IMG/VR virus record: IMGVR_UViG_3300020169_000132
Span: 1-22,251 of that record
DNA: 22,251 nucleotides
Strand: one strand, 5' to 3'
Origin: a virus
Shown here: positions 1,970-19,801 of the stretch, piece by piece
Position numbering within the stretch: position 1 is the stretch's first letter
Layout of the letters: each line of letters starts with the position of its first letter
Made by a program: the position numbers and the translations under genes
The notes under the pieces: generated by a model
What the model was told of the DNA's origin: nothing
Database searches by the model: none
The model's input: only the letters and a program-made list of their open reading frames with translations

Positions 1970-4900
1970 CTATTTCTCCATTAGTTTTTTAACAAGGGTT
2001 TTGAGTTCGTCAATTTCGGTTTGTTGCTGCTTGGCGTTTTCAATGAGATAACCGACGAGGTTTCCATACGCGACAGATTTGGTTCCCATCTCATCATCTG
2101 CCGTATGGACCAACTCGCTTGCAATAAGCTCCAGTTCCTGGGCGATTACGCCCGACCCCGCTTTGCCGTCCTTAGTAAAAGACACGCCACGCATTTGCAA
2201 GACTTTAGAGCCATCAAGCGTTTTGATATCCGACTTAAGGCGTTTATCTGAGTAAGCTGTTACGTTGTCCGAGGCTGTAATTGAGCCATTGAAAGATACA
2301 TTGTTATTACTAACAGCATAATCAAAAACGGCATAGCGAGTGCCATTGTATAGTCTATAAAAAGTTATGAAGTCAGCGCGTTCGCCACTAGCCCAAGCTG
2401 GAGATCCGTCTCCATTGTAAGACATACCGCCGCCGTATGTGTCGCTCTGACCGACTTCAAAAATCCCAGTTCCCTGTCCGTCGCCGTTAGCGCGAACAAA
2501 CGCCTGACCGTTGTTGTCGCACTTAATCTTAACGGTTGTGCTCACACCTGAGTCAAATACCGTTTCCCCTTCAACGGTTAAATTGTTTCTGACAATCGTG
2601 TGACCTGCGGAGGTTAAAGTAAGTGCTTTAGTGCCACTTGTGCCGCCTGATTGCGAGATAGATGTACCGTTTACCCAAAAGTCAAAATATCCACCCGTGG
2701 AGGTATTGCCTGCTATTATATTATTCGCACCGTTATTGCCAAGCTGCAAAGTCCTCCAATCAAAATAGCCTCTATAACTGTTGGTGGAAGTGTAGTGCAT
2801 AAATATACCGGCAGTCCCATTACCAGCAGTCCAACTAGCATACCCGCCGAATGTTGAGTTGCCAGTTGTTGCGAGTGACCCAATACCCTGCAAAGCGTTT
2901 CCAGAAAAGTTGACAAAAGACGCGACTCTATCGCCATACATAATAAGAGCGCCTGCCGCACTGTTATCGTGGCCCCACATACCCCACTGACCGTTGCCGA
3001 TTTGGCTAAGACCTGTCCAAGTTTGACCGCTCGCGCCTTCTATACTGGTAGCGCCACCCCTATAACCTATGGACATTCCATAATTGTCCATTAGGGCTGT
3101 AGTGCCGTTGTGCTCTGTGAAAAAGATGCGGCCAGACCCTTCGCCACTTGTGTCAGTATTGCCCTCAATGGATAGATACCTTCCCCCGACAGAGCTGCCC
3201 AGACCGGGAACACCCATAGACAGGTATGCGTTGTCGGCGGTAGTCCTTATGTTTCCTAAACTATTAAGGTTTCTGCTGGAATCAACTATGGTTGTTGAGC
3301 CTATTTTGAGTCCACTAGCCCTGACATAGCCCGTATAAGCACCTTCACCTTGTGTAAAGTCAAGATCATTGCCTGTGTAACTAATAAAAGCAGCATCACT
3401 ACCTCCAGGTGAAGCGTGCAGAATGTAGTAGTTTGACGCTCTTACAAACCCACCAAACTGAGCTATTGCGCCAGAACCGGCGTTGTTAATTGCCCCAACG
3501 TGTAGTTTTGCTGCCGCAGGAGTAGTTCCAGAAGCAGATGCTTTGACAAACCCCGTAGCGGTAAAGTCTGCTGCGTAAAAATTTTTATTGGCATCAATTA
3601 TAGTAGCGCCAGCAGATTGAAGGTTATATCCGCTTCTTATATCAATATTGCCTTGAAAACTGAAAGTGCTTGCAGTTGAAGCATAGACTTGTGGCCCTCC
3701 CGAAAGATCTTCCCTATATAACTGAATCGCCCAAGGGGATGAGTCATCGGCTGATATTTTTAATAGAGGGCTTGCGCTTCCGTCATCTGTTAATGTGAGA
3801 CTTTTTGCTGTAATAGCCCCACTAGAGATAGTTCCAGAAAAAACCGCGTTCCCGCTGGTGTCTAATTCAAGTCTTTTAGTGTTGCCTCCGGTTGCGAATA
3901 AAATGCTTTCTTGCGAGCGTATACACAGGTCATCAATTGCAGAAGTTGAAACCATGTCTCCCGCTGTTGTTGCTGACTCTATGCCGCTTTTAAATGCACC
4001 TCCTCGCAAGAACCTGACCCTCACGGTGTCGGTATTGTCAATATCTATACCATTTTTAAGATTGAGATACTTAGCTGAGTTTATTGATAGGGCGTCATTT
4101 CCACTGATTTTTATTTTGTAGAAGCTGCCAGCCCTGTTTGAATGAACAATTAAAACGCCATCAACACTATTTTCATGGCCGTAAGTCCCCCATTCGCCAT
4201 TGCCTAGCGTTGACGTAAACCCGCTATCAAAATCTAGCGGAGCCGATCCAGAACCTTCGTAGACGAGCGAAACTCCATATTTATAGGGGTAATTAGCATC
4301 TCCAGAAACTCCTGTCTCAGACATAAACATGCGTAGAGACTTATCAGAAGCGGATGTGCCATCTTTGTTGATAGTTTCAAACAAAAATCCAACGGGAGTT
4401 GTTGCGCTGCTAGCTCCAATCTCAAATTTCTGATTGTTCGCTGCCCCTGCCGTCACGGCTGTATGCGCGGCAGTAATAACCGCCTTGTCCGTGGTGAATT
4501 GTAAGTTAGTCCCTGTGTTGCCAGTATGATAAAGGTACTCTGGTATGTATAAATTCCCACCAAACACAGCATCTGCGTCAGCTTCTAAAGTTAGAGCAAG
4601 ATTCCCACTGGTTCCGCCGCTTTGGCTTATTGCTGTTGCATTAGTAAAAAACCGAAAATGACCGCCAGCCGAAGTACTTCCTGCCAATATGTTATTTGAA
4701 CCGTTGTTTCCCAGCTGGAGAGTTCTCCAGTCAAAATAGCTCCTGTAACTGTTGGTGGCATTGTAGTGCATGAATATTCCGGCAACGCCGCTGCCGCCGG
4801 TCCAGCTTGAATATCCTCCATGTGTAGAATTGCCTGTGCTTGTAATAGCACCACTAGAGATGGTGCCGACGGTCAGATTGCGGCTTACATCTGCCATTCT

Positions 4901-7900
4901 GGTTCCGTTTACCCAATAGCCATAGGGCGCGTCTACACCAGTATCATCGTAGATCTTGAAATGCACCTTGTTGGTATCTTCTGGTTCGTAAAAATGCAGT
5001 TCGTCGCCAGAAAGACGAATAGCCATATCAACACCTGGGTCAGTAGCGGTGCTCGTGTTGAAGGTTACTGCTGGCGATGTGCCTAGCGTAGTCGTTAGAA
5101 CGATATCGCCTGTGCTTGTTATTCCAGAGGTGGATATGCTTGCTGCGTTAATGTTTTGACTAGAATCTATGACTGAGATGCCACTGAGTTCAAAGCTAGT
5201 GGCAGATACAGATCCAGAGAAAGTAGAATTACCACTACTATCAACAACTAATAAAGCGGTTGAGCCAGTTCCTTGACCGCCAATTTGGGCTGCGGTAGTG
5301 GCTGCAGAGGTCCTAAGCTCAAATTTTCCTGCGTTAGCGGAAGCAGTGGAAGGAGCGTTGTGAATCCAATAATGTCTGCGCGTTGAGGCCGTATAGTTTG
5401 AGAGAACAATGTTAGAAGCCCAATCCCCACCATCGTCAGCAATTACTTGAATCTGACCCTCGGTGGCTTGAACCTCTAAGGTCACATTAGAGCTGACCAC
5501 TGCGCCTGTCACTGTAGAGGGCTTTACTGTTGTAACCCCAGTCAAAGTGCCGCCAGCTAAAGGCAAGTGACCAATTTGAGAATAGTCGTATCCAGTTTCC
5601 CATTGCAGGGAATTAGACGCAGCACCGTCAGCGTAAATGGTGCCACTTGCTAAAAAGTTCCCGTTGTTTACAAACGCCCAGTTATTGCCCGCAACGCTGG
5701 GGTCATAGTCAATATACAAAGTTGACGTTGCTAAACTTACGTCTGCATATATCTTAAAAGCAGTCGCATTTGAAGCTGACGAGTCTTGTAAGAATATTCC
5801 TGCCTCGCCACCAGAAGAGCGCAAATATAAATTTGAGTTGGCTAGTATATTTCCGCGAAATTCCCAATCGTTACTGTTTACATAATTCCTAGCAGTCCAA
5901 AAAGTACCAGCTTGCCCAGTTGAGGCAGTTGTGCGATAGAGCGCAGTGTAGTCATCGCCAGCTCCTGAAGTCACAGGGCTGTTGTCTCCATTGTACTCAA
6001 TGCCGCCACCATAATCAGTAGACTGTCCAACAAATAATTTGCCAGTTCCTTGACTAGATCCATACAGGCGGATTTGAGCCATGCCATCATCGTCAGCAAT
6101 GACATTAACTGTCGTGTTCGTGCCGTTATCAAATGTTGCGTTTTTTGTGCTTATTGCATGACTAAACTCAAACGTATCAGTCGCAGTCTTCCATAAGATA
6201 GAAGCATCTGTCGTAGAATTAACCGCATCTTGGATAATGATACCGGCGTTGTTCGCGGTCGCAGAAGAATCACCCGTGGAATAGTTTAGCGTTATGTCCT
6301 TATCCGCAACGGTCAGATCTGCCACGTTGATCGTGGTAGTCGTTCCTTGGACGGTTAAGTCTCCGGTGACTACTAAGTCCCCTGAGATGGTGCCGCCACT
6401 GGAAAGCAGGTTTTGACTCCCTGAAATAAATACATTGTCTGAGCTTTTTATCAGCCCTGAGCCGGTTATCTCGTAATGACGCTCGTCACTATTGCCGCCG
6501 TCAAAATAAATGCCTGTCGTTGTGTTGTTTGAGCTTGGTGGCGTAGTAGATCCACTGATTACGGTCGTCGTTCCGTCTTCTACAACCCTGACAACAATTT
6601 TAATCTTGTATGTCTGAGCCGTTGGGAACAAGCCTGATCCAAGAGATGCAGTCGTTATCACATAGCTGGTAGCGCCGCCTCCCGCATTGGGAATCATTTC
6701 TAGCGCACCGCCAAAGTCTTGCAGTACAGAAAAATACCTTGTCAAAGATCCACCGTATCCAGCGCCTCTATCAAACCCGCCAACCCGCATTTGCGTTGAA
6801 GATGGAGTCCCGCTGTTTACGATAGTAACTCGCTGGGTAGCTGAGGGCGTTCCGCTATAGCTTCCGCCATTGGGCTTAACGTAGTAGTCAACCAGAACAT
6901 CAACGCCGGTTAATTGCGCCTCTGCGCTTGCTGTGCTGCTTGTGCTTGCGCCAGCGAAGTATTGGGTTGCGTCATAATTGTCGTTTAACGCGACCTTAGA
7001 TGTGATTGAGAATGACTCGCTTGCTGAAGCCGTTGTAAGTGTGATTTCGCTAGTGGAGTTGTTAACCGTCCCGCCGACCGTGGATACAACCGATCCGCTA
7101 GACACTGATATATCGTTAAGTGCTGCCGCGCCCAAACCTGTTGGGCTTAATAGCACATCCCCAGATGTGTTGTAGATCGTAATGTTTGATGCGAATACTC
7201 GTCCATCGTTACCGACCTTAAATGATGAATCATCAGGCGAATACTGATTAGTTTCTGTATCAAGTGTCGCGTTGGTGAACATCCTGTAATCGGTGTCATT
7301 ACCATCAATTACCGTAATTGTTCCAGCCGTAGATCCGACCGCTACCTGACCGCTAAACTCCCCAGCGGATGCGTTTACGGTGCCGGTAACGGTAAGGTCA
7401 TCACCGTCAAACGTAAGCGCCTCAGATGTTGAATTCCTTATGCTGAGTTTGTATTTACTGCTGTCGTACCCAAGGAAAAAGCCTTCTCCGCTATTATAGG
7501 AAGTCTGACCGCCTCTAATAGAGCCGCCCTGGTTCATTCTGATACCACCTTGGGTGATGGTAACGTCTTCTGATATACCGCTCTGTGCTACTGCTTGGCC
7601 TGTCGTTGTGTTTGCAACGCCAAGATTGATTGAGATCTCATCGCTGTTGTTGATATCAATCCCAATAGTAGGATCAGCAACATTGTCCCAGTCCACCTCA
7701 ACTGCGCCAACTGTAGCGAATACTGTTGTGTTGGGGTCAGCATTAGGCTCTAAATTAGACTGACTTGCTGCGTCCGTTCCGACATTCTTAACTGCTCTTA
7801 CCCAGTAATATCTAAGGTTTCCTGGGGCCATGGTTTCCCACAGATTACCCGTTCCGCTTCCTGTCGCCGTTGCAGTAAAGACAACCCCAACGGTATTAGA

Positions 7901-9748
7901 GGCTGCACCCATAGCTACGAAGTTTGTATTTCCTAAAGTTCTTATCGTGTAGGTATCACCTACATTGACAACCGAAGGCGAAAAGACCAAAGACTTATTT
8001 GACGCATCGTGAATAAACTGAGTTCCGTCAGTCTCACCAATCTTTATCGCGGATGAGAAATTTGCATTCCTTGATGCGTAAATGTAAATCGTCCCAAAGT
8101 CATTAGGCTTGCTAGGATTGATCCAATTCAGCTCATTGCTTTTTAGTCCAGCCGTAGCAGTTAAACCAGAAGGACTTGGAACGCCTCGGAAAGCGTCTGT
8201 GATGTCGCCTGTAGCCGTAATCGTGGAATACTCATTATTAGGCGTTACAGTCGGATCAGCGTAGGATGTGCTTGAGTCTTCCCGTAAGGTTAGATTAACT
8301 CCACCATCTTCTGAGAACGTCCAGCCAGCACACTGAAAGACCTTGTTTGACCAATTCAATTCCTCAACAGAGACTTGAACCCGATCACCTGCTGTTATCC
8401 TCAAAGCAGATAAATTCGCTGGGAATGTAACGACCTTCTGCTGATCGCTTAACTGAATTAATTTGTGTGACAGTCTCTGAGCCATATAGCTTGAGTTAGT
8501 CATGGGATACTGAACTTCTTTTTCCAGTATTTCCCCGTTGTCTCTGGTAACAGCGTCAGCTAACTGAACCTTCGGAAACTCGCTTGACTTGTGATTCTGG
8601 GCTGGATCAATAAACAGACCTTTGATCGTGTTGAATCGGTCTGATCTTTCCAATGAAGTCTTGATTGAAATAGCGCCGATCAAGTCATCTTCAGTCAAGG
8701 TCTCGGTCGGAGCCTCATAGATCCCAGCGTGAACGATATACTTACCATTGGAGTAAACAAGGTTGCCGTTCATTGACGATAGGATCTTGTTTATATTCTT
8801 CTGGTGTGAGTCAGTCGCAAATACTACGCCGTTACAAGTAAACCTTGATTCCGTACCGCCAGGAACAGAGACCGATACATCACAACCGTCTGCCGCTGTA
8901 GATACAGAATCCCAATCAATCTTACCAACAGCTATACCCATCCCAAGATAGGTATCCGTGAGATAGTCAACAACGCATAAACTTGGGTTCGTTGAATAAG
9001 TTATATAGCTTGCATTAGTCGTATCTTGCCCTCGTGTCCCAACAGCCGCAAACTCTAACCGTGGGTCATAGATAGACTTGCCTTGAACCAATGCTTTTAC
9101 ATTTGAAGGCGCAAATTTTTCCCAAGTCTCCGCTGAGTCTTCGTTCAAGACCCACTTCATCGCCAGATAAGCAATGCCATCGCCACGATGAGCGGACGTG
9201 TAGTTAGCAAACGGGCCTGTCAATAAAACGTCTGCTGTTTGAGACGCTTCACCTAAATGCTTTTTAATTACGCAAATGGTGTTTGAGTTCTTAGGCCCAA
9301 AAGTCCCAGCAGTAACATTACCGCCAGCATCAGATCCGCCGTTTATCTGCGAATCCGTAATCACAACGTCATCCATGTGGATGTCGGTAATGTCGTTTAA
9401 TTCATGCCCTGCTAGAACAATGGTCTGGTAAAGGTCAGAGTTATCGGTGCCTGATAACCCGATAAAAGAAATCGGGCCTGATACCAATGCTTCGCCGTAG
9501 ATTATCTTCTGTGGTTCTGTCGTTGATTTAACTGTTCTCTGTCTGGAAGCGTCAGTGTCAACAGTCGGCATTTCTACTTCAAAAAGACTCATTGCCTGTT
9601 TAGCAATTAAAGTCCCACCAACAACAACAGCAGCACCAATCGCTACAGCCGCTCCAGCACCAAGAGTTGCCGCAGCAGCCGCCCCAGCGACAAGCTCAAA
9701 AGCAAAAAAACCAATTTTTAGTAACGCTATACCTATTGCTTGTGGCAT
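1970..9748 (-). CDS. J-like tail hub fused to a giant tail fibre with C-terminal S74 chaperone
   Basis: A 2,592-residue receptor-binding protein. Residues about 5-52 are hydrophobic, rich in Ala, Gly and Val. Residues about 55-505 resemble the tail hub of lambda J (PQKIIYGEALVSGPISFIGL; later FPANLSALRITAGDRVQVS). A fibronectin III-like domain covers about 522-665 with an inserted motif. Fibre modules follow: GGIRMNQGG near 735, a 'TTTTINVADLTVADKDI' module near 1125-1190, many DSSxNL-type shaft repeats, and duplicated blocks listed separately. The C-terminus has SDKRLK, with S2500 and K2505 placed like the self-cleavage pair of endosialidase chaperones, then a coiled coil. I chose ATG 9748; a TTG at 9757 would add three residues. 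The chaperone should drive trimer folding and then be released. Confidence 0.9.
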   Translation of the reverse strand: MPQAIGIALLKIGFFAFELVAGAAAAATLGAGAAVAIGAAVVVGGTLIAKQAMSLFEVEMPTVDTDASRQRTVKSTTEPQKIIYGEALVSGPISFIGLSGTDNSDLYQTIVLAGHELNDITDIHMDDVVITDSQINGGSDAGGNVTAGTFGPKNSNTICVIKKHLGEASQTADVLLTGPFANYTSAHRGDGIAYLAMKWVLNEDSAETWEKFAPSNVKALVQGKSIYDPRLEFAAVGTRGQDTTNASYITYSTNPSLCVVDYLTDTYLGMGIAVGKIDWDSVSTAADGCDVSVSVPGGTESRFTCNGVVFATDSHQKNINKILSSMNGNLVYSNGKYIVHAGIYEAPTETLTEDDLIGAISIKTSLERSDRFNTIKGLFIDPAQNHKSSEFPKVQLADAVTRDNGEILEKEVQYPMTNSSYMAQRLSHKLIQLSDQQKVVTFPANLSALRITAGDRVQVSVEELNWSNKVFQCAGWTFSEDGGVNLTLREDSSTSYADPTVTPNNEYSTITATGDITDAFRGVPSPSGLTATAGLKSNELNWINPSKPNDFGTIYIYASRNANFSSAIKIGETDGTQFIHDASNKSLVFSPSVVNVGDTYTIRTLGNTNFVAMGAASNTVGVVFTATATGSGTGNLWETMAPGNLRYYWVRAVKNVGTDAASQSNLEPNADPNTTVFATVGAVEVDWDNVADPTIGIDINNSDEISINLGVANTTTGQAVAQSGISEDVTITQGGIRMNQGGSIRGGQTSYNSGEGFFLGYDSSKYKLSIRNSTSEALTFDGDDLTVTGTVNASAGEFSGQVAVGSTAGTITVIDGNDTDYRMFTNATLDTETNQYSPDDSSFKVGNDGRVFASNITIYNTSGDVLLSPTGLGAAALNDISVSSGSVVSTVGGTVNNSTSEITLTTASASESFSITSKVALNDNYDATQYFAGASTSSTASAEAQLTGVDVLVDYYVKPNGGSYSGTPSATQRVTIVNSGTPSSTQMRVGGFDRGAGYGGSLTRYFSVLQDFGGALEMIPNAGGGATSYVITTASLGSGLFPTAQTYKIKIVVRVVEDGTTTVISGSTTPPSSNNTTTGIYFDGGNSDERHYEITGSGLIKSSDNVFISGSQNLLSSGGTISGDLVVTGDLTVQGTTTTINVADLTVADKDITLNYSTGDSSATANNAGIIIQDAVNSTTDASILWKTATDTFEFSHAISTKNATFDNGTNTTVNVIADDDGMAQIRLYGSSQGTGKLFVGQSTDYGGGIEYNGDNSPVTSGAGDDYTALYRTTASTGQAGTFWTARNYVNSNDWEFRGNILANSNLYLRSSGGEAGIFLQDSSASNATAFKIYADVSLATSTLYIDYDPSVAGNNWAFVNNGNFLASGTIYADGAASNSLQWETGYDYSQIGHLPLAGGTLTGVTTVKPSTVTGAVVSSNVTLEVQATEGQIQVIADDGGDWASNIVLSNYTASTRRHYWIHNAPSTASANAGKFELRTSAATTAAQIGGQGTGSTALLVVDSSGNSTFSGSVSATSFELSGISVIDSSQNINAASISTSGITSTGDIVLTTTLGTSPAVTFNTSTATDPGVDMAIRLSGDELHFYEPEDTNKVHFKIYDDTGVDAPYGYWVNGTRMADVSRNLTVGTISSGAITSTGNSTHGGYSSWTGGSGVAGIFMHYNATNSYRSYFDWRTLQLGNNGSNNILAGSTSAGGHFRFFTNATAISQSGGTSGNLALTLEADADAVFGGNLYIPEYLYHTGNTGTNLQFTTDKAVITAAHTAVTAGAANNQKFEIGASSATTPVGFLFETINKDGTSASDKSLRMFMSETGVSGDANYPYKYGVSLVYEGSGSAPLDFDSGFTSTLGNGEWGTYGHENSVDGVLIVHSNRAGSFYKIKISGNDALSINSAKYLNLKNGIDIDNTDTVRVRFLRGGAFKSGIESATTAGDMVSTSAIDDLCIRSQESILFATGGNTKRLELDTSGNAVFSGTISSGAITAKSLTLTDDGSASPLLKISADDSSPWAIQLYREDLSGGPQVYASTASTFSFQGNIDIRSGYNLQSAGATIIDANKNFYAADFTATGFVKASASGTTPAAAKLHVGAINNAGSGAIAQFGGFVRASNYYILHASPGGSDAAFISYTGNDLDFTQGEGAYTGYVRASGLKIGSTTIVDSSRNLNSLGNIRTTADNAYLSMGVPGLGSSVGGRYLSIEGNTDTSGEGSGRIFFTEHNGTTALMDNYGMSIGYRGGATSIEGASGQTWTGLSQIGNGQWGMWGHDNSAAGALIMYGDRVASFVNFSGNALQGIGSLATTGNSTFGGYASWTAGNGTAGIFMHYTSTNSYRGYFDWRTLQLGNNGANNIIAGNTSTGGYFDFWVNGTSISQSGGTSGTKALTLTSAGHTIVRNNLTVEGETVFDSGVSTTVKIKCDNNGQAFVRANGDGQGTGIFEVGQSDTYGGGMSYNGDGSPAWASGERADFITFYRLYNGTRYAVFDYAVSNNNVSFNGSITASDNVTAYSDKRLKSDIKTLDGSKVLQMRGVSFTKDGKAGSGVIAQELELIASELVHTADDEMGTKSVAYGNLVGYLIENAKQQQTEIDELKTLVKKLMEK
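2354..2539 (-). repeat. Fibre module A, copy 2
   Basis: Residues 2404-2465 of the fibre protein (QGTGIFEVGQSDTYGGGMSY). It lies about 35 residues before the S74 chaperone domain. Confidence 0.75.
2615..2863 (-). repeat. Fibre module W, copy 2
   Basis: Residues 2296-2378 of the fibre protein, the same length as copy 1 with no gaps. The shared core is YFDWRTLQLGNNG. Confidence 0.9.
2915..2998 (-). repeat. Fibre module H, copy 2
   Basis: Residues 2251-2278 of the fibre protein (GNGQWGMWGHDNSAAGALIM). It lies just before module W copy 2. Confidence 0.75.
4121..4204 (-). repeat. Fibre module H, copy 1
   Basis: Residues 1849-1876 of the fibre protein (GNGEWGTYGHENSVDGVLIV). It is 28 residues long, with 15 identical to copy 2. 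Confidence 0.75.
4586..4834 (-). repeat. Fibre module W, copy 1
   Basis: Residues 1639-1721 of the fibre protein. It is 83 residues long, and 63 are identical to copy 2, including SYFDWRTLQLGNNG and SQSGGTSG. DNA similarity is also evident. Confidence 0.9.
5933..6115 (-). repeat. Fibre module A, copy 1
   Basis: Residues 1212-1272 of the fibre protein. They share with copy 2 the skeleton TTV, IxxD, G, QGTGxxxVGQSxxYGGG and YNGDxSP, ending in YR. About half the positions are identical. Confidence 0.75.
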
Positions 9749-10125
9749 AAATCCCAACCCGATAAGATATGTTGCTCAGGAACCCTAGCGAATCCCGACT
9801 TAACTAGACAAACTGCTGTATTGCCCAGCTTGATACCCATAAGCTGGCTGTCAGGCGTTTTTACTATAACTGGCGAACCATCTGATAAAGATCTAATGTC
9901 TTCCGTAGGCTCGCCTAAAACGCTTGCAGCTGTGTCTTCCAAGTCGCCAAAATCCTTAATGATAGATTCAGCGTCTTCCTCAGAATTATAGTGGAAATCG
10001 GCAAGATAGTCTTTGCCTGTTAATTCTTTTACGATGAAACCAGCGAACTGACAGCAATCTACAGAGCCATAATCAAAGTCTTTCTTTTCCCATTTATTCA
10101 ACGCTTGATAGACTTGCAAGATCAT
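9733..10125 (-). CDS. NlpC/P60-like tail assembly protein in the lambda K position (DUF6950 type)
   Basis: A 130-residue protein opening with MILQVYQALNKWEKKDFDYG and SVDCCQFAGF, where C24 sits at the start of a helix, as in NlpC/P60 cysteine hydrolases and the short phage DUF6950-like proteins. In lambda, K joins a JAMM peptidase and an NlpC/P60 domain and acts on cell wall or tip assembly. This protein has only the short NlpC-like part. I see no His placed as a normal catalytic partner: the usual strand reads QLMGIKLGNTAVCLV. It may be inactive or structural. Its start overlaps the upstream stop (TAATG), and its end overlaps the J gene start. Confidence 0.72.
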   Translation of the reverse strand: MILQVYQALNKWEKKDFDYGSVDCCQFAGFIVKELTGKDYLADFHYNSEEDAESIIKDFGDLEDTAASVLGEPTEDIRSLSDGSPVIVKTPDSQLMGIKLGNTAVCLVKSGFARVPEQHILSGWDLCHKQ

Positions 10126-10757: not shown

Positions 10758-11374
10758 GCTAGAACATCCTCTATGGCCTCAACGGTAAAATTTGAAACTA
10801 TCCCTGGCTGCGTATCCCAAGATGTCGCGCTAGAAAGCATAAAAACTCCAAAAATTGGCTGTAGATAATCAATTGCATCAGCTCCATTTAAAAGTGATGT
10901 TGGCTTTCTGATCGGGGGCGCAATCGGTATAGAGACTGTATTAGATCCTGTTGAATTACAATCATCAGTGACCATGTGAAGCTCATTGTTAAACGCGATG
11001 TAATCACCCGCTTTAAGATATCCTGTCTGCGAAGCGGTTGCTCCACTAGCTACTAAGGTAGAGCCTGTTTGTCCTGCGCTGTTTACAACTAAGGTGTCAG
11101 CCGGATTGCTAGGCGCTATGCCTCTTTTCACAGCGGAATGATCATGCAAATACATTCTGTGCTGCTGCCCGTTCATCTTCGCCAGAAACCCCTGCATTAT
11201 CGCTCTGTCATTGCCAGAGAGATTATTAAACCGCATAGATATCTTCCAGAGAGAACCTTTCCTTGATGCAGTCTGAACAGAGTTAGTCAACGGGCTTTGA
11301 AACGTCCGAGTGTTCGTCACCAGCTCAAACGTGCTAGATGATGGCGTTATGCTTGGGAACATATATACAGTCAT
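10754..11374 (-). CDS. Tail tip protein in the lambda M position (distal tail type)
   Basis: A 206-residue beta-rich protein between the tape measure and the L-position gene. It has the pattern 'FELVTNTRTFQSP ... GSLWKISMRFNNLSGNDRAI ... FLAKMNGQQHRMYLHDH' and ends FTVEAIEDVLA. Proteins with this 'short strand, then RAIMQGFLAKMNGQ' core occur next to tape measures in many environmental siphophages. They fit the distal tail ring that connects tube and tip, although I cannot name a family with certainty. The start overlaps the tape measure stop (TAATG), and the stop overlaps the next start (ATGA). Confidence 0.7.
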   Translation of the reverse strand: MTVYMFPSITPSSSTFELVTNTRTFQSPLTNSVQTASRKGSLWKISMRFNNLSGNDRAIMQGFLAKMNGQQHRMYLHDHSAVKRGIAPSNPADTLVVNSAGQTGSTLVASGATASQTGYLKAGDYIAFNNELHMVTDDCNSTGSNTVSIPIAPPIRKPTSLLNGADAIDYLQPIFGVFMLSSATSWDTQPGIVSNFTVEAIEDVLA

Positions 11375-13923
11375 TACCCGAATCTCCGGCGGCGCATCAG
11401 ATCTTGTATGCTAAGTATAGTTTGTTGCGAAGTCTGCTGCATTGCTGCCCTGATCTTCATATCTACATCAGCACCAGCGCCTGTTGCGTCTATGTTGTTG
11501 ACCACGGTAATACCGCCACCTTGGCCCTTAGTGTGATCAACAACCGTCTCATTCGGATGAAGAATAGCTGGGAAGCCGCCCTTGCCATCCATGCCGCCGG
11601 ACCTTCCACCTGTGCCGGTAAAACCACCGCCGTCAAAGCTCTGAGCCTTGATCTGAGCGACTTGCCCCATACCAGCAGCAATAACACCACCGGCCATAAC
11701 GTAGTTCAGAGGCGGCGGATAGCTCTTGTAGGCTACGGTTGCAGCAGTAGAAGTATTCATTATAGCATTAGCGATATTGAACGCTTTGCTGATTGCAAAC
11801 AGGCGCTTGTTGTTCTTTGCTATACCGTTGAATTGATTACCAAGTTCGCCCAAAACATGCTCGGTCTGTTCTGTAGCAGACAGCTTGTTAAATGACTCTA
11901 GTCTCTTAGCGCCTTCAATAGAAGCTCTTTGCAAGAAGTTCATGCCTTCTAATTCGTCTGTCACACCTTGATCTAATAAGGCTTTCTTCTTCTCGTTGAA
12001 GTCCTCAATGACCTGCAACTGCATGTCTCTGAACGTCTGTTCATTGATAACGCCCAGTGCTAGATTTTCTACAAGAATCAGGTTTTGATTAACCATAGAC
12101 TGTTCTAGTGCTTGCTCTTCAGTCAACAAAGATTGACGTAAGCTCTCTAATTTACCCTTAGCACTCTCTACCTTCTGCGCCTCTTCTTGTGCAGTTTGAA
12201 AGTCTTTAAGCCTCTGTATTGCGTTATCAAATGCTTTTTTCTGCTCGGTATCTAATCCTTTTACTAAATCGTTAGCTAACAACAGCTCTATATTACTTTT
12301 CCCTAAAGCATCCGCTTGTGCGACTACGCCATTGACGTAGTTTTCAGCAGACAAAGCTTGCGCTCTAAGAGCCGCCGCATCTTCATCTCGCAATGCCTTC
12401 GCATCACGCAAGCCTTGGTTAACTTCTTGTAAGCGGAAAATTTCTTTTATTTGTTGAGCACTGTAACCCTTGCGAGCAAGTTGTAGTGCTTGCAGAGTCT
12501 TCAAACCGAAGACTAGCTGGGTATTCTCGTCTATTAAAGATTGAACATGCTCATCTACAGTTCGCTTTAACTCGTCTGCTTTATCTTTTGCCTCGGTATC
12601 AGCTTTAGATTTAGCTTCTGTTGCCGTTGCGTTGCCAAATAACACTTCTCTTAAAGTTTCTAGAACTATTCCGGCTTCTTGAGACGCAACTTTAAATTCT
12701 TGTATTCTTAAATTAGCTTTTAAGAACTCTTCTGCTTGCTCGGCAGTTTGCATTCTGGAGTCTGATATGCTTTGCATCAATTCTGCAATGCTATCTATTG
12801 TTGCGCCGGTTCCCTTGTTATAACTCTTTTGAGCTTCTACTACTTTCTTAAGATCTTCTCTTGCCACACCATACTTTCTGGATAAAACAGTAAGCTCATC
12901 TATCACTACGTTTGTTTCAGTGCCAAGAGTAGATGGTATTAAGTTGCTTAACTCATCTTTGAATCCGGTAACCGCGCCTTTAGCGTTTTTCATTGCATTA
13001 ACAAGCTCAATCTGCAATGTAGCTTTTGCTAAACTCTCGCTTTTCTTAGTTAGTTCATCAAACTTATCAGTAAGTAACGCAACTCCAGAAACAAAATCTA
13101 TCTTTAAGAATTCCGCAGTAGCCTCTGCTGACTTCTTAATTTCCTCTAAGGCATCCTTAGAGCTAAACACTTTAGGCATGAAGTAAGTACCAAGAGCGGC
13201 ACCTACAGCCAATACAGCACCGATCAAAGCGCCGTTCTGACCGAATAGAGAAGCAACCTGGGAACCCTGCTGACCGAAGATGAGAAGCGCGTTCTGACCC
13301 ATTTGAAGCTGAACCGCAACGTCCTGTACCTGATGGCCTAACTGGCCCATACCGCCTCGCATCAAGCGCAATCCGCCTTTCGCAGTGCCGGCGGCAGCAG
13401 AACCTTGCTTCCTAAATTCTTTAGTAGCTTGCTGAGTAGCTATAACAGAATCTAACTGTTCTTGAGTAGCACCCATCATCTTTAGGCGATAGATCTCAAG
13501 CTCGTCAGAGGTCATATCAACCGTGGCGGCTTCATCTCTGTAGGCGTTGTTAGTGCGGTTTACTGCGTCAGCAATTCTTTTAGTTGCGGCTTCTTGTAGT
13601 TCAGCTTCTTTGCGACCACGAATTGCAGCTTCTGTAGCCCTGTTGTGAACATCAATCTTATCATGAAGATTATTAATGGCCTCAAACTCAGCGTCAGAAG
13701 CACTAAGAGTTGCTGCCTTGAGGAGGTCAAGTTCTCTGGCGTTTTTACCTAAAGCAAGGACTTGCTTGTCTAAGCTCTCTACAAGCTTGTCAACAGCGTG
13801 AGCACGGAAGGCTTCTGTGGTTTTCTTAGCGCGTTCAGCATTACGAGCGTAGGACTGAAATCCTACCTTCGTATTATCATCTATTGATATTCTTGCTAGG
13901 ACTGTTTCTTTTGTTGTCGCCAT
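11374..13923 (-). CDS. Tail length tape measure protein, lambda H-like
   Basis: An 849-residue protein. Residues about 20-180 are charged and helical (likely coiled coil), followed by GGLRLMRGGMGQLGHQVQDV and a Gln-rich segment around 190-230 typical of this family. A hydrophobic segment follows (about 231-249, GALIGAVLAVGAALGTYFM), then a long helical rod to about 700. The C-terminal part has AFNIANAIMNTSTAATVAY, then a Gly-rich FDGGGFTGTGGRSGG and HPNETVVDH, which close many lambda-type tape measures. The protein sets tail length, occupies the tube lumen and takes part in DNA entry. At about 0.15 nm per residue the tail would be near 125-130 nm. The ATG at 13923 has GAGAGAAG upstream. Confidence 0.92.
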   Translation of the reverse strand: MATTKETVLARISIDDNTKVGFQSYARNAERAKKTTEAFRAHAVDKLVESLDKQVLALGKNARELDLLKAATLSASDAEFEAINNLHDKIDVHNRATEAAIRGRKEAELQEAATKRIADAVNRTNNAYRDEAATVDMTSDELEIYRLKMMGATQEQLDSVIATQQATKEFRKQGSAAAGTAKGGLRLMRGGMGQLGHQVQDVAVQLQMGQNALLIFGQQGSQVASLFGQNGALIGAVLAVGAALGTYFMPKVFSSKDALEEIKKSAEATAEFLKIDFVSGVALLTDKFDELTKKSESLAKATLQIELVNAMKNAKGAVTGFKDELSNLIPSTLGTETNVVIDELTVLSRKYGVAREDLKKVVEAQKSYNKGTGATIDSIAELMQSISDSRMQTAEQAEEFLKANLRIQEFKVASQEAGIVLETLREVLFGNATATEAKSKADTEAKDKADELKRTVDEHVQSLIDENTQLVFGLKTLQALQLARKGYSAQQIKEIFRLQEVNQGLRDAKALRDEDAAALRAQALSAENYVNGVVAQADALGKSNIELLLANDLVKGLDTEQKKAFDNAIQRLKDFQTAQEEAQKVESAKGKLESLRQSLLTEEQALEQSMVNQNLILVENLALGVINEQTFRDMQLQVIEDFNEKKKALLDQGVTDELEGMNFLQRASIEGAKRLESFNKLSATEQTEHVLGELGNQFNGIAKNNKRLFAISKAFNIANAIMNTSTAATVAYKSYPPPLNYVMAGGVIAAGMGQVAQIKAQSFDGGGFTGTGGRSGGMDGKGGFPAILHPNETVVDHTKGQGGGITVVNNIDATGAGADVDMKIRAAMQQTSQQTILSIQDLMRRRRFG

Positions 13924-14400
13924 CCATCTTCTCTCTTTTCACTTTAAAGAAAGTCCACCAATGATCAAACTCGGCCACAGTCATGTCTAAGATTGTCGCT
14001 AGGGGCTGACCAAGTCGCTCGGCTAACTCGTACATGTAGTATAGCTGAGTTGGGTTGCCTTGGTCAGTTATAAGTTTTTTTCTCGGTCTTCCTCCGATTC
14101 AGAACCAGCGGTTAGCGCAAACGTAGCAAGTCTAGTCACTATGTCTGGGTCAACCTTCTTTCTCAGCGCAACCTTATCCTCAAGCCCGAAGACAGGATCT
14201 CCGTTCTCGTCAACAAGGCCAAAGATCACCGCATAGATAAGATAATCAGTGTTATCACTATCTGCGCGACGAAGCATTTTGGCCTTATCGTCAAGGGTAA
14301 GGTTCTTTGCGAAAAGACTAACCTCCCATTCTGGGACCTCAATCTTCCGCAAATCCTTGCTGTTAAAGTGTGCTAATGCGTTCTCAATTAGCCTCGGCAT
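13877..14400 (-). CDS. Tail assembly chaperone G-T fusion made by -1 frameshift
   Basis: Reading through G to the A AAA AAC heptamer (14074-14080) and shifting -1 continues as LITDQGNPTQLYYMYELAER and onward, ending at TGA (13877-13879). This adds 65 residues to the first 109, for 174 in total. The added part contains ELAERLGQPLATILDMTVAE followed by an aromatic FDHWW, the helix pattern expected of the T domain that binds the tail tube protein. The T part fills the otherwise empty stretch between G and the tape measure and overlaps the latter's start by 47 nt. Lambda makes gpG and gpGT in the same way. The open frame, the site and the stem-loop agree; actual slippage is inferred. Confidence 0.85.
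14006..14067 (-). promoter_or_regulatory. Stem-loop downstream of the frameshift site
   Basis: On the minus strand CTGACCAAG (14059-14067) is perfectly complementary to CTTGGTCAG (14006-14014), a 9-bp stem. It starts 6 nt after the slippery heptamer, the normal spacing for a frameshift stimulator. The 44-nt loop holds a second possible stem, AACTC with GAGTT. Both arms lie in the T coding part. Confidence 0.8.
14068..14400 (-). CDS. Tail assembly chaperone, lambda G-like (unshifted product)
   Basis: A 110-residue, mostly helical protein (MPRLIENALAHFNSKDLRKI ...) between the tail tube and tape measure genes. It ends in an acidic tail (SESEEDREKNL) that carries the frameshift site. In lambda the equivalent G protein coats the tape measure and is absent from the finished tail. 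The WEVSLFAKNLTLDDKAKM and DYLIYAVIFGLVDENGDPVF stretches resemble siphophage chaperones with a folded helical core. Ribosomes that do not slip stop at 14068, two codons after the slippery heptamer. Confidence 0.88.
   Translation of the reverse strand: MPRLIENALAHFNSKDLRKIEVPEWEVSLFAKNLTLDDKAKMLRRADSDNTDYLIYAVIFGLVDENGDPVFGLEDKVALRKKVDPDIVTRLATFALTAGSESEEDREKNL
14074..14080 (-). promoter_or_regulatory. Slippery heptamer A AAA AAC for -1 frameshift
   Basis: In the zero frame the codons are GAA AAA AAC TTA TAA, so the heptamer fits the X XXY YYZ rule exactly, and a stop follows two codons later. The -1 frame is open for 65 more residues with T-like sequence. Confidence 0.88.
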
Positions 14401-14401
14401 G

Positions 14402-14791
14402 TTATACCGTATCGGCTGTTAGAGCGCCAGTACCTTGAACAGAGATAGAAGCTTCTACCATTCCGTCAAAGCTTGCAGTTCTAGAAACGCCCGTCACTAG
14501 GGCTGTGCCAGAGTAAAAAGTAGCACCAGTAGCCCCGCCTTCTGGGTATAATCCAAGCGTTACACTCGCCCCGATTGTTAAAGCTCCCTGTCCTGTCGCA
14601 TCGGTTTCGTCCCAAAAACAATCTAATGATCCAGAGAAACTGGACAAAGTGATTGCATGAGTTCGTGACGTATCCGTCATTTTGGTTGTTTCAACGGTAT
14701 CCGCTGATTCTTCTATAGAAAATGATTTAACTTCGGCTACTGTAGCGCTACCGACTTTAACAATCCCATCGCGTCCGATATGACTTGCCAT
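14402..14791 (-). CDS. Major tail tube protein
   Basis: A 129-residue protein of the kind that stacks as hexameric rings to make the siphovirus tail tube. Recognisable features are MASHIGRDGIVKVG, EVKSFSIEESADTVETTKM, a SFSGSLDCFWDETDATGQGAL stretch quoted here only in part, and VSRTASFDGMVEASISVQGTG at the end. This is the usual order of 'strand, helix, target-binding loop, long C-terminal strand'. It corresponds to the N-terminal domain of lambda gpV and has no added Ig-like C-terminal domain. AAGGAG lies upstream of the start. It is followed after one base by the chaperone gene, in the expected order V, G/GT, H. Confidence 0.85.
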   Translation of the reverse strand: MASHIGRDGIVKVGSATVAEVKSFSIEESADTVETTKMTDTSRTHAITLSSFSGSLDCFWDETDATGQGALTIGASVTLGLYPEGGATGATFYSGTALVTGVSRTASFDGMVEASISVQGTGALTADTV

Positions 14792-15987: not shown

Positions 15988-18342
15988 TTAGCTTGCAATG
16001 ATGTCTTTGATTACTGAGAAAGACTCAGGATATCTAAGAGCAACGTCTAAGTCTTGGAAGAACGCGAGTCGCGTACCGCCAGAAGTAGACAAGCTGGATT
16101 GGTCAACAACAACGTCAACACCTGACCAGAAACCAATCATGATCTGGCTGAAATCGCCGTAGACCATTGCTGACAGGTTAGAGCCAGTGCCTTTAGTCAA
16201 GTCAGAAGGAACCACGGTGCTAGAAGCAACATTAGTACCCAAGATTGACTGGTTGGCATCCATGATGAAGTTGCCTTCAACGCCGTTTGCTTGTCTTGCC
16301 GTAGTCCGTAAAGCCGCGATGACTTTAGGGTTGGTCAAGAAAGCAGAGCTATTGATGATGGCATTGTCTTCTTCAACAGCTTTCATCATCTCAACTACTT
16401 TAGCGTAGGTGATTGCAGCACCATTGGCGCCCATAGCAACTACGTTAGTAGAGCCGTTAGCAATGATCCCAGATGGCCCATTAGTAGCACCGCCTTCAAT
16501 AGCAGCATCATCAATTCTTCGTGCGAAGGTGTTGATAATGTCGTTACGGAGGACTTGTTCTACTGAGGGGTCTGACTGCTGCATGAGTCGCCGCGATACG
16601 TCAACATAAGCTGCCAGCGTTTTTGGGGACATCGTCACCTGAGCGAACGTAGCTGCACCTTCACTAGGCGCTGAACCTTCAGCAACGAATGCTGAGTTGG
16701 TTACAGAAGCACTGAGCTTAGGAATAGCAACATCACCTTTCAGGCCTTGCATGATGCGAGCACCCAAAGAAGCTACAGTCAAACGACCATACAATGCTTC
16801 AATGAATTGATCAGCAAGATGATCAGTACCAACCAAGAAACCACCGGCAGAAGTCGGAGATTTAGTCTGGTCGCGCTGACCCCAATTGATGTTAGCAGGA
16901 ACGTAGAAACCACGGGCTTCTTTGCCAGAACGGTGTGCGATCTCATCAGAGATTTCACGCTCGTAACCAGCTTCGCGCCAGTCGCCAGATGAAGCAGCTT
17001 TGATAGCTCGGATTAAGCTATATTCACGCTGTTCGCTCTTGGCTACGTCAACGACAGCAGCAGGAGTTTCTAACGGACGATCATTTCGGACAGCTTCAAG
17101 AAGCTCTCCTTTGAATTGATCAACGGATACACCACGTTCAATAGCTTTGTCGGCTAAATCACGCTGATTATGATGCTTACCCAAAGAAATGATTTCACCG
17201 ACATTGGCTAACGCTTCTGCCTTGGCTGAATCACTTACTTGGCGAACATCTACTTTTACTTCTTCAGTCATAGTAGTCACCTTATTAGTGTTTAAAGTTT
17301 TTTCGGTGGATCGTCCAACGCCAACAAACTTAGAGGGGTCAGCAGGGACAGCGACAATTGATGCTTCCATCGGTGTCCAACTAGCCCTGTAGTACTCCTT
17401 TCCTTCGCCGTCTTTAGAACGAACCATTCTGTTAATGCTGTAACCGACACTAATGTTTTGCTTAATGCCTGTTCTAACATCCTCAAAAACCTCTTGAGCC
17501 AAGGCTGAATTGCCAAATTCAACCAACGCAACGGTACGCCGCTGCGCCTCATCAAGGTAAAATGACCGCACAACCCCGATCTGTTCATCCATCTTATGGT
17601 TGTTCAGAAGCGGTGCGCGACCAGAAGCCATAAATTCCATATCTATGTCTTCTTTATTATGGCCCAAAACCTCTAAGCCAAAATCTCGTTCAACTGGTGT
17701 TTCTGATGAAACGCCAATTCGGACAATACGCTTTTGCTCGTCAATAGCTCCGCGAGAAAGGTCAATTGTCCTATAAATTACTTTGTCAGATACCATATCA
17801 CGGGCCATAGCCTGATATTCTTCGTCATCTAATTCTGCTGAACGCTCTTCTTCAGAATCTTCAATGATATCTTCAACAGTGTCTTCGGCAGCTTCTATCT
17901 CGGCTTTCCTAAATTCAACGATAAAGCTGTCTTCGGTTTCTTCAACCCCTACAACATGTCTTTCCATTTGTATCACCTCTTGTTCTGGCTCAATAGTATC
18001 ATCTTTGTCAATAGATTCAGACCATCTTTCGTCTTTTTTCATCTGGTTGACAAGCTTCTTAGACCATGAAAAACCGGCATCTCCACCCCATAATGCCCAA
18101 GCTATTCGCCCGTTTGATGGATATCCTTTCTCTCCAGGCCTAAAGCCTTGTGCCTTCTTGTCCACTTCATGCCGAGAAAAGAACGAATACATCCTCTTTA
18201 CCGTAGAATCTGACAGATCTTTGGCGTTAACAATGTCTCTGGCTCTAGCGATACCAACTTCAGTACCACCGCGACCGAACTCGCTACGCCAATCCAAGCC
18301 TTTTCGGGCCTCTGACTTCATTCCGCTATTCGGGGTCGGCAT
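15988..18342 (-). CDS. Polyprotein: small N-terminal domain + HK97-type prohead protease (S78) + HK97-fold major capsid protein
   Basis: One 784-residue frame covers three parts. Residues about 8-100 form a compact domain (EFGRGGTEVGIARAR, FFSRHEVDKK, GRIAWALWGGDAG) seen in many phage proteins but without a known function. After an acidic linker (about 115-190), residues about 190-345 are a prohead protease with candidate catalytic H249 (LLNNHK), S298 (QNISVGY) and E326 (EASIVAVPADP). From about 358 on comes a scaffold-like charged stretch and then an HK97-fold capsid protein (SPTSAGGFLVG, PKTLAAYVDVSRRLM, YPESFSVIKDIIAS). The protease is expected to cut the scaffold part and itself free during maturation. 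I chose the ATG at 18342 because AAGGAAGGGAAA precedes it; a TTG at 18387 would add 15 residues. An internal start at 17271 would give capsid alone. Confidence 0.92.
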   Translation of the reverse strand: MPTPNSGMKSEARKGLDWRSEFGRGGTEVGIARARDIVNAKDLSDSTVKRMYSFFSRHEVDKKAQGFRPGEKGYPSNGRIAWALWGGDAGFSWSKKLVNQMKKDERWSESIDKDDTIEPEQEVIQMERHVVGVEETEDSFIVEFRKAEIEAAEDTVEDIIEDSEEERSAELDDEEYQAMARDMVSDKVIYRTIDLSRGAIDEQKRIVRIGVSSETPVERDFGLEVLGHNKEDIDMEFMASGRAPLLNNHKMDEQIGVVRSFYLDEAQRRTVALVEFGNSALAQEVFEDVRTGIKQNISVGYSINRMVRSKDGEGKEYYRASWTPMEASIVAVPADPSKFVGVGRSTEKTLNTNKVTTMTEEVKVDVRQVSDSAKAEALANVGEIISLGKHHNQRDLADKAIERGVSVDQFKGELLEAVRNDRPLETPAAVVDVAKSEQREYSLIRAIKAASSGDWREAGYEREISDEIAHRSGKEARGFYVPANINWGQRDQTKSPTSAGGFLVGTDHLADQFIEALYGRLTVASLGARIMQGLKGDVAIPKLSASVTNSAFVAEGSAPSEGAATFAQVTMSPKTLAAYVDVSRRLMQQSDPSVEQVLRNDIINTFARRIDDAAIEGGATNGPSGIIANGSTNVVAMGANGAAITYAKVVEMMKAVEEDNAIINSSAFLTNPKVIAALRTTARQANGVEGNFIMDANQSILGTNVASSTVVPSDLTKGTGSNLSAMVYGDFSQIMIGFWSGVDVVVDQSSLSTSGGTRLAFFQDLDVALRYPESFSVIKDIIAS
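17269..17284 (-). promoter_or_regulatory. Internal ribosome binding site and ATG for free major capsid protein
   Basis: Within the protease-capsid frame the minus strand reads TAAGGTGACTACTATG. AGGTGA (17277-17282) matches six bases of the anti-Shine-Dalgarno complement, and the ATG (17269-17271) is 5 nt further on. The in-frame product is 427 residues, a normal length for an HK97-type capsid protein including its scaffold domain, and the start falls exactly between the protease and the capsid part. Its use in the cell is inferred, not shown. Confidence 0.55.
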
Positions 18343-19801
18343 TTTCCCTTCCTTCAACTTCTGCTTCTGTCGGTAGCTTAATACCAAAAGGTTGGAAGGC
18401 TGTCTTTATTCCATACTGTTCAGCAAGCTTCTGTTCTCGTTCGTGCTGCTCAAATAGCTCTTCAACATCACGCCCGTAGTTAGCCTCAATGTCTTGATAC
18501 GTCACGATACCGTTCTGAAGGCCAGCAATGTTGGCTTGCATTTCTTTCTGCGGATCTACCCAACCCCAACTGCGAGGAATGTAAGATACACCTTCGGCAA
18601 ACTTGTCGTACTTTGTGATAGGAAGGTTGATTGAACGAGTCATGGCGTTCTTCAGCCAGCTTCTGAATACCGGCTCAATAAAGTGCTCAACCATGAACTT
18701 CTGAAGTATCCTGTATTGATCCCTATCCTCTAAACTACCCGCTCGTAGAGACGAATAGTTCACACTAGACAGGTCATTTGAGATTGAGTGATAACTAATG
18801 TTTAAACCTGAAGCAATACTTCTCAGGATAGCAGTAGAAAAGCTCTCAAACGCTGTCGTAGGATGGGCAGGGTCAAATGCCTTAAAGTCCATTCCGGCAG
18901 GGAGCTGCTCAAACGTAGCCGGTTCCGCAGACATGATAGGCGTGTATTCGTCCTGCATTTCATCGCCAACGTATCCATCGCCGGCAGGACTGGTAAAGAA
19001 GCCCATCTTTGCCGAGGAAACCCTAGCAGCAGTGATCTCAGCCTCATAATACCCATTCAGCATCTTGATATTGCCCATCACAGGCGCTACAAACGGATAA
19101 CCACGGGTCTGTTCAGGTCTTTGACGTACAAAGGCGTGAATCACTTCTTCTGCTGGGACTCTAATTGTCTCATTGCTCTGCTGAAGCCCTAAATCGTTTG
19201 GATGGTTCTTATATAAGTGATACGCGACAGGTTTTCGCTTGTCGTTGATCTCAACACCCATGACAACCTTGTTGCCGTTAGTGTAGATCTCGTTTTTAGT
19301 GTCGTTGAGGTGATCTGCTTCCAGAAATTCAATCTTATAGCCAAATTCGCTTGTAGGATCTGTGATCTGACGAATTAAGACCTCACCATCACGGGCTAGA
19401 GCCTCAATAAACATCCTTTGACAGTCAATCATGGACATCTGACCGTCCACAGTGCAGTTACCCTTCTTAGACCACTTCTTCCACGCCATCTCAATCGTTG
19501 AGTTAGCAACAGAATCCAAGGTGCCGTCAGAGTCTCTAGACTTAGCATTGACCCTAATGCCGTTATGACCGACTACGTTTGACGTTAGAAGGTTTAGATA
19601 TCTGGCTACATAAGCGTCATTTCGTGATAGCTCACGGCTTCTGTTCCGCAAAGTGACCAGTGCTTGCCTTAGTTCCTGATCTGCGGAAGCTGAAGAACTA
19701 AAAAAGTCGGAGAATAACCGACCGCCTTGAGCGCCTTTAAACGATCTTTGCATCTTGATCTGTTTGCGGATCTCTTTTCGTTTAAAAGGGTTCCAAGCCA
19801 T
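18326..19801 (-). CDS. Phage portal protein, lambda family
   Basis: A 491-residue portal, the dodecameric ring at the capsid vertex through which DNA enters and leaves and on which the neck is built. Family-typical stretches are visible: SRNDAYVARYLNLLTSNVVG near 60-80, ALARDGEVLIR near 135-145, IEFLEADHLN near 157-166 and YHLYKNHP near 194-201. The N-terminus is basic and the C-terminus is charged, as usual for this family. The length agrees with lambda-type portals (about 500-530 residues). The start overlaps the previous stop as TAATG, and the end overlaps the ATG of the protease-capsid gene by 17 nt, so the three head genes are probably translated in series. Confidence 0.93.
   Translation of the reverse strand: MAWNPFKRKEIRKQIKMQRSFKGAQGGRLFSDFFSSSASADQELRQALVTLRNRSRELSRNDAYVARYLNLLTSNVVGHNGIRVNAKSRDSDGTLDSVANSTIEMAWKKWSKKGNCTVDGQMSMIDCQRMFIEALARDGEVLIRQITDPTSEFGYKIEFLEADHLNDTKNEIYTNGNKVVMGVEINDKRKPVAYHLYKNHPNDLGLQQSNETIRVPAEEVIHAFVRQRPEQTRGYPFVAPVMGNIKMLNGYYEAEITAARVSSAKMGFFTSPAGDGYVGDEMQDEYTPIMSAEPATFEQLPAGMDFKAFDPAHPTTAFESFSTAILRSIASGLNISYHSISNDLSSVNYSSLRAGSLEDRDQYRILQKFMVEHFIEPVFRSWLKNAMTRSINLPITKYDKFAEGVSYIPRSWGWVDPQKEMQANIAGLQNGIVTYQDIEANYGRDVEELFEQHEREQKLAEQYGIKTAFQPFGIKLPTEAEVEGRENADPE

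Follow-up and report, generated by a model that had tools for sequence, protein, structure and literature searches.

The analysed stretch of viral DNA (hereafter the window; 22,251 nucleotides) carries on its minus strand the morphogenesis module of a siphovirus, comprising genes for a terminase, a portal (assigned from the gene's own sequence), a protease-capsid fusion, a tail terminator, a major tail protein, G, T, a tape measure protein and a tail tip. The features relevant to the tail chaperone region are as follows:

1 to 22,251, source stretch, IMGVR_UViG_3300020169_000132; the module lies on the minus strand
14402..14791, minus, major tail (tube) protein gene, directly upstream of G (PHROG 1407 major tail protein, E 3.6e-18)
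14068..14400, minus, gene G, open reading frame of the 0-frame product of 110 aa (PHROG 344)
14074..14080, minus, slippery heptamer A AAA AAC in -1 phase with G, read from the sequence and kept in relatives
14068..14070, minus, TAA stop of G, the second codon past the heptamer
14059..14067, minus, 5' arm of the downstream hairpin, CTGACCAAG, from the fold and from covariation in 20 distinct relatives
14049-14042 with 14025-14018, minus, inner helix CTCAGCTA/TAGCCGAG of the minimum free energy (MFE) fold, with one A.C mismatch
14006..14014, minus, 3' arm of the downstream hairpin, CTTGGTCAG, from the fold and from covariation in 20 distinct relatives
13877..14074, minus, predicted -1 frame extension T, from the open frame, conservation of the T domain, pN/pS and a weak match to PHROG 25875
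11374..13923, minus, tape measure protein gene, 849 aa (PHROG 9483, E 5.7e-23)

G sits between the major tail protein and tape measure genes, as expected of a lambda-type pair. The anatomy that a sequence-only reading had proposed for this region (the phase of the heptamer, a stop two codons on, a 6-nt spacer, a 9-bp stem and a -1 frame open to 13877) proved correct almost letter for letter, and the possible inner stem it had mentioned is present in the MFE fold. That reading had also described an empty gap before the tape measure gene; this holds in part, but the tape measure ATG lies at 13923 and the end of T runs 47 nt into that gene.

The product of G matched PHROG 344 'tail assembly chaperone' (E 3e-10). 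A profile built on 32 G relatives had the HK97 chaperone (PDB 2ob9) as its top PDB match (E 0.015), and the same structure was the first Foldseek match of the predicted G fold (mean pLDDT 87.3; E 6.6e-5, prob 1.00, TM about 0.56–0.67), at an identity to G of about 20%. Both G and T fell under the curated cut-offs of Pfam, neither matched NCBIfam and the hairpin had no match in Rfam, so that the chaperone assignment of G rests on PHROGs, profile and fold. By these lines the G product is a tail-chaperone homologue.

The 3' end of G reads GAA AAA AAC TTA TAA, and the first A of A AAA AAC falls on codon position 3, the phase required for simultaneous -1 slippage. Scanning viral contigs for G recovered 74 loci (27–100% identity), of which 72 had a readable G stop; an in-phase X XXY YYZ heptamer lay ≤25 nt from the stop in 70/72. 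The independent sample is smaller than this count, as near-identical copies of a single virus make up many of the loci; over 90 nt, 14 rows, counting the window, do not differ at all. Loss of the heptamer in relatives, an outcome that the sequence-only reading had named as counting against itself, was confined to L066 and L057. Most relatives carry A AAA AAC, with A AAA AAG, G GGA AAC or G GGA AAG in the distant ones. This variety bears on whether the A run itself is the active element, with the polymerase adding an A on A7 (14081-14075) and a mixed mRNA pool giving rise to both G and GT. Long A runs such as A7 in the window and A9 in the marine phage HTVC026P would suit slippage during transcription, but the distant relatives have GGGAAAC or GGGAAAG at this position, without a long A run; the property that is conserved is the in-phase X XXY YYZ, a signature of the ribosome, and the covarying hairpin downstream (see below) does not favour slippage by a polymerase. 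With GGGAAAC and GGGAAAG in the distant relatives, transcriptional slippage was judged unlikely, and we consider it very improbable.

The two loci that depart from the pattern differ from one another. In L066 (1626-1964), G ends in GCA AAG GAA TAG without an X XXY YYZ motif while the -1 frame is still open and T-like; a single-tRNA site of the A AAG type is possible there. In L057 (1998-2402), ~100 nt present in L058 are deleted, among them the heptamer and the initial part of T, and G is fused in frame with the end of T to give a product of 135 aa; this could reflect true variation or a chimeric assembly.

Beyond the heptamer, the -1 frame from 14074 offers 65 codons after the slip and is open to the TGA at 13879-13877, for a predicted GT fusion of about 174 aa. 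The frame extends 134–215 nt beyond the G stop in 69/69 loci where this could be judged; a closed -1 frame, another outcome set against the sequence-only reading, was found in none of them. Where the T region of the window differs from that of its clade, the substituted bases are mostly third codon positions of the -1 frame. In comparisons of the window with 11 informative relatives (L005, which has a single substitution, was uninformative), pN/pS in the T region was 0.16–0.39 in the -1 frame and 0.79–2.68 in the other two frames. This pattern of substitution indicates purifying selection in the -1 frame only, the signature of a protein translated there. An alignment of 34 T sequences (alongside the 32 of G) defines a conserved T domain with an invariant Trp, predicted to be a small helical domain (mean pLDDT 86.7). 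The PHROG match of T was weak (PHROG 25875 tail assembly chaperone, E 0.005), the search of its fold against the PDB gave no meaningful match, and tblastn of T alone against named phages matched CRP-406 only (E 0.01).

A protein translated in the T frame could in principle be made on its own, either from an internal start (e.g., in the region of the ATG at 14035-14033, the M codon in YYMYELAE) or by ribosomes re-initiating once past the G stop, and no frameshift would then be needed. The T-frame ATG is invariant in 20/20 clade sequences (alignment columns 46–48), as such a start would predict. However, the CTATACTAC that precedes this ATG (about 14035 in the window) has no Shine-Dalgarno match, and the ATG is absent from the distant L052, CRP-406 and HTVC026P, in which the in-phase heptamer is retained. 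A start at the internal ATG would also lose the conserved first residues of T and would leave the conservation of the heptamer unexplained. Given the missing Shine-Dalgarno match and an ATG that is not kept in distant relatives, an internal start was judged unlikely, and separate synthesis of T is, in our view, extremely improbable. The preferred reading is that T is reached by a -1 shift at the heptamer.

The hairpin lies immediately past the G stop, inside the T coding sequence. Its outer stem (CTGACCAAG/CTTGGTCAG) consists of 9 perfect Watson-Crick pairs closing a 44-nt loop, at a spacer of 6 nt from the heptamer (14073-14068). The MFE of the hairpin region was -19.8 kcal/mol (z = -2.96 against dinucleotide shuffles, with 2/200 equally stable). 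Against a null in which the T protein was fixed and synonymous codons were randomised, a 9-bp stem at a 4–10 nt spacer arose in 77/20,000 recodings (0.4%), and an equally low fold energy in 73/2,000 (3.7%), so that the fold energy of the window alone is only moderately unusual. The strength of the case for the hairpin comes from the relatives, not from the fold energy of the window: the folds of L032, L036, L045 and L049 reached z of -3.8 to -4.7 against the synonymous null.

Within the window's clade (20 distinct sequences, aligned free of gaps), 8/9 of the outer pairs were held in 20/20 sequences and the ninth, outermost pair in 9/20. In two pairs both partners were replaced (G-C by C-G, A-U by C-G) with pairing kept, and in a third pair only one partner changed; the two-sided replacements are the compensatory changes that the sequence-only reading had sought in relatives. 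The covariation score of the outer stem was 0.242 compared to 0.094 in shuffled alignments (0/500 shuffles reach it), and 94% of its cells were paired compared to 13–51% in slid versions of the stem; by itself, the number of pairs that changed on both sides was no higher than in shuffles (359/500 reach it). The replacements in the stem exchange a T residue D for P (A in L031) and, on the other arm, Q for E. Amino acids are altered on both arms, yet the arms still pair, and the pairing has therefore been held across amino acid change. In the tree of G, L031 and the L032 group are sisters; together with a double change of C-G to G-C seen within the inner helix in the clade, this indicates about three independent double changes. 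Judged from these alignments, covariation of the stem in the window's clade is real but modest.

The spacer is near-constant across clade members, at 6–7 nt from the heptamer, and a structured RNA 5–9 nt downstream with compensatory changes is present in the window's clade and not in all relatives. The consensus inner helix is weaker, with 76% of cells paired and shifts of register between members, and it fails in some clade members, and we therefore make no claim that the inner pairing is conserved. Beyond the clade, in more distant relatives, the fold is different or missing. L070 (-4.6 kcal/mol) and HTVC026P (-8.8) carry the heptamer without a strong hairpin, from which it follows that the stem is not essential to the G/GT arrangement in general. 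The perfect stem of the sequence-only reading is a feature of the window's clade but not a property of G/GT cassettes generally.

These observations bear on whether the shift is real and the hairpin merely a by-product of codon usage in T, with no stimulatory role. The 3.7% of synonymous recodings that reach the window's fold energy and the distant relatives without a strong hairpin are in keeping with a by-product, and other phages do not in every case require a structure for the G/GT shift. Standing against it are the paired columns that hold through two-sided changes, including amino acid changes on both arms, the near-constant distance of the stem from the heptamer in the clade, and the z values of the four relatives under the synonymous null. 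A by-product of this kind seems rather improbable. As for a dedicated role, we give about equal weight to either side of the proposal that the ~62-nt covarying hairpin in the T coding sequence sets the G:GT ratio in this lineage, and that T took on the D to P and Q to E replacements alongside the changes in RNA pairing. If true, the protein sequence in this phage tail cassette would be under constraint from RNA structure.

Taken together, the window pair can be assigned with near certainty, on sequence evidence, to lambda-type G/GT tail assembly chaperones made through programmed -1 ribosomal frameshifting in an uncultured siphovirus. Its basis is the anatomy of the site, a heptamer conserved among relatives, a T under purifying selection in the -1 frame, a covarying stem, the homology and predicted fold of G, and gene order. 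The G/GT frameshift proposed in the sequence-only reading is likewise supported by the heptamer, the selection on T, the changes in the stem and the homology of G. From these observations we infer the occurrence and efficiency of the shift, a stimulatory role of the stem and a chaperone function of GT. Most ribosomes would halt at the TAA and release gpG of 110 aa, while a minority, held up by the hairpin when A AAA AAC occupies the P and A sites, would have both tRNAs slip back by one base and, reading on in the -1 frame, would add 65 T residues to give a GT of about 174 aa. If lambda is a guide, many G and few GT would coat the tape measure protein, the T part would recruit the tail tube protein, and G and GT would both then leave the tail. 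The binding of G to the tape measure and of T to the tail tube protein is presumed here from the lambda system (PMC5009743).

In phage lambda, gpG and gpGT are made at a ratio of about 30:1; they bind the tape measure protein and the tail tube protein, and neither is present in the mature virion (PMC5009743). Virions are for this reason a poor sample in which to look for GT and lysates the right one. Frameshifting of G/GT is widely conserved among long-tailed phages, and 2,397 of the 2,476 annotated frameshifted genes in the PRFect training genomes are tail assembly chaperones (PMC10885494), which places the case in the window within an already known mechanism. The window shares with lambda the order major tail protein, G, T and tape measure, and a T that is appended to G and accessible solely through a -1 shift at an in-phase heptamer close to where G ends. 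It differs in its A AAA AAC, the covarying downstream hairpin and a short T (about 65 aa); the lambda heptamer is G-rich. The work on lambda gpG and gpGT is reportedly that of Levin, Hendrix and Casjens in 1993 and of Xu, Hendrix and Duda in 2004, 2013 and 2014; a review (PMC5009743) sums it up. With the mechanism known from lambda and its kin, the less usual and slightly noteworthy detail is a conserved covarying hairpin inside the T coding region; the T annotations lacking in three cultured marine phages (see below) also deserve slight notice. With this locus, an uncultured siphovirus lineage that is widely sampled gains a clear predicted G/GT frameshift, and the window's clade is a natural set of hairpin variants for gauging the contribution of a downstream stem to tail-chaperone frameshifting.

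Among named phages, the Rhodobacter phage RcCronus (NC_042049) has a G homologue (29% identity) with a heptamer at the stop codon, a T frame reaching to just before the tape measure gene, and two annotated chaperone products, the G/T pair being entered as a joined CDS. It differs in the heptamer, which is GGGAAAC at the G stop, and in its downstream fold. The cultured marine phages HTVC026P, CRP-406 and CRP-822 each have A AAA AAC TAA followed by an open T frame in which T is unannotated, at these positions:

L077 2960-3120 (CRP-406)
L076 2330-2507 (HTVC026P)
L084 near 3712 (CRP-822)

The suggestion that gene finders usually miss T therefore holds for these three phages but not for RcCronus. 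The CRP-822-type roseophages (CRP-406 and CRP-822; PMC12629253) resemble the window in module order, in a G that ends with A AAA AAC TAA and in the open T frame, and their terminase is about 55% identical. They differ in that T is absent from their records, G is too distant for tblastn at E 1e-3 and no equivalent stem was seen; the paper describing the group does not mention frameshifting (PMC12629253). Omission of T from the deposited annotations of CRP-406, CRP-822 and HTVC026P means that their tail proteomes would be searched against an incomplete protein list. Outside the viral contigs, the closest G was found on a contig of a Gammaproteobacteria MAG (L079; 61% identity), with the same heptamer.

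Elsewhere in the module, a single ORF of 799 aa (15988-18387) combines an S78-like prohead protease region, which is below the Pfam cut-off, with the major capsid protein, and the CRP-406 capsid ORF is of similar size. The tail-tip ORF (1970-9757; 2,595 aa) joins a Phage-tail_3 domain through a long middle to an S74 chaperone domain at its C-terminus, and contains several in-frame heptamers of slippery type, including A AAA AAC at 6146.
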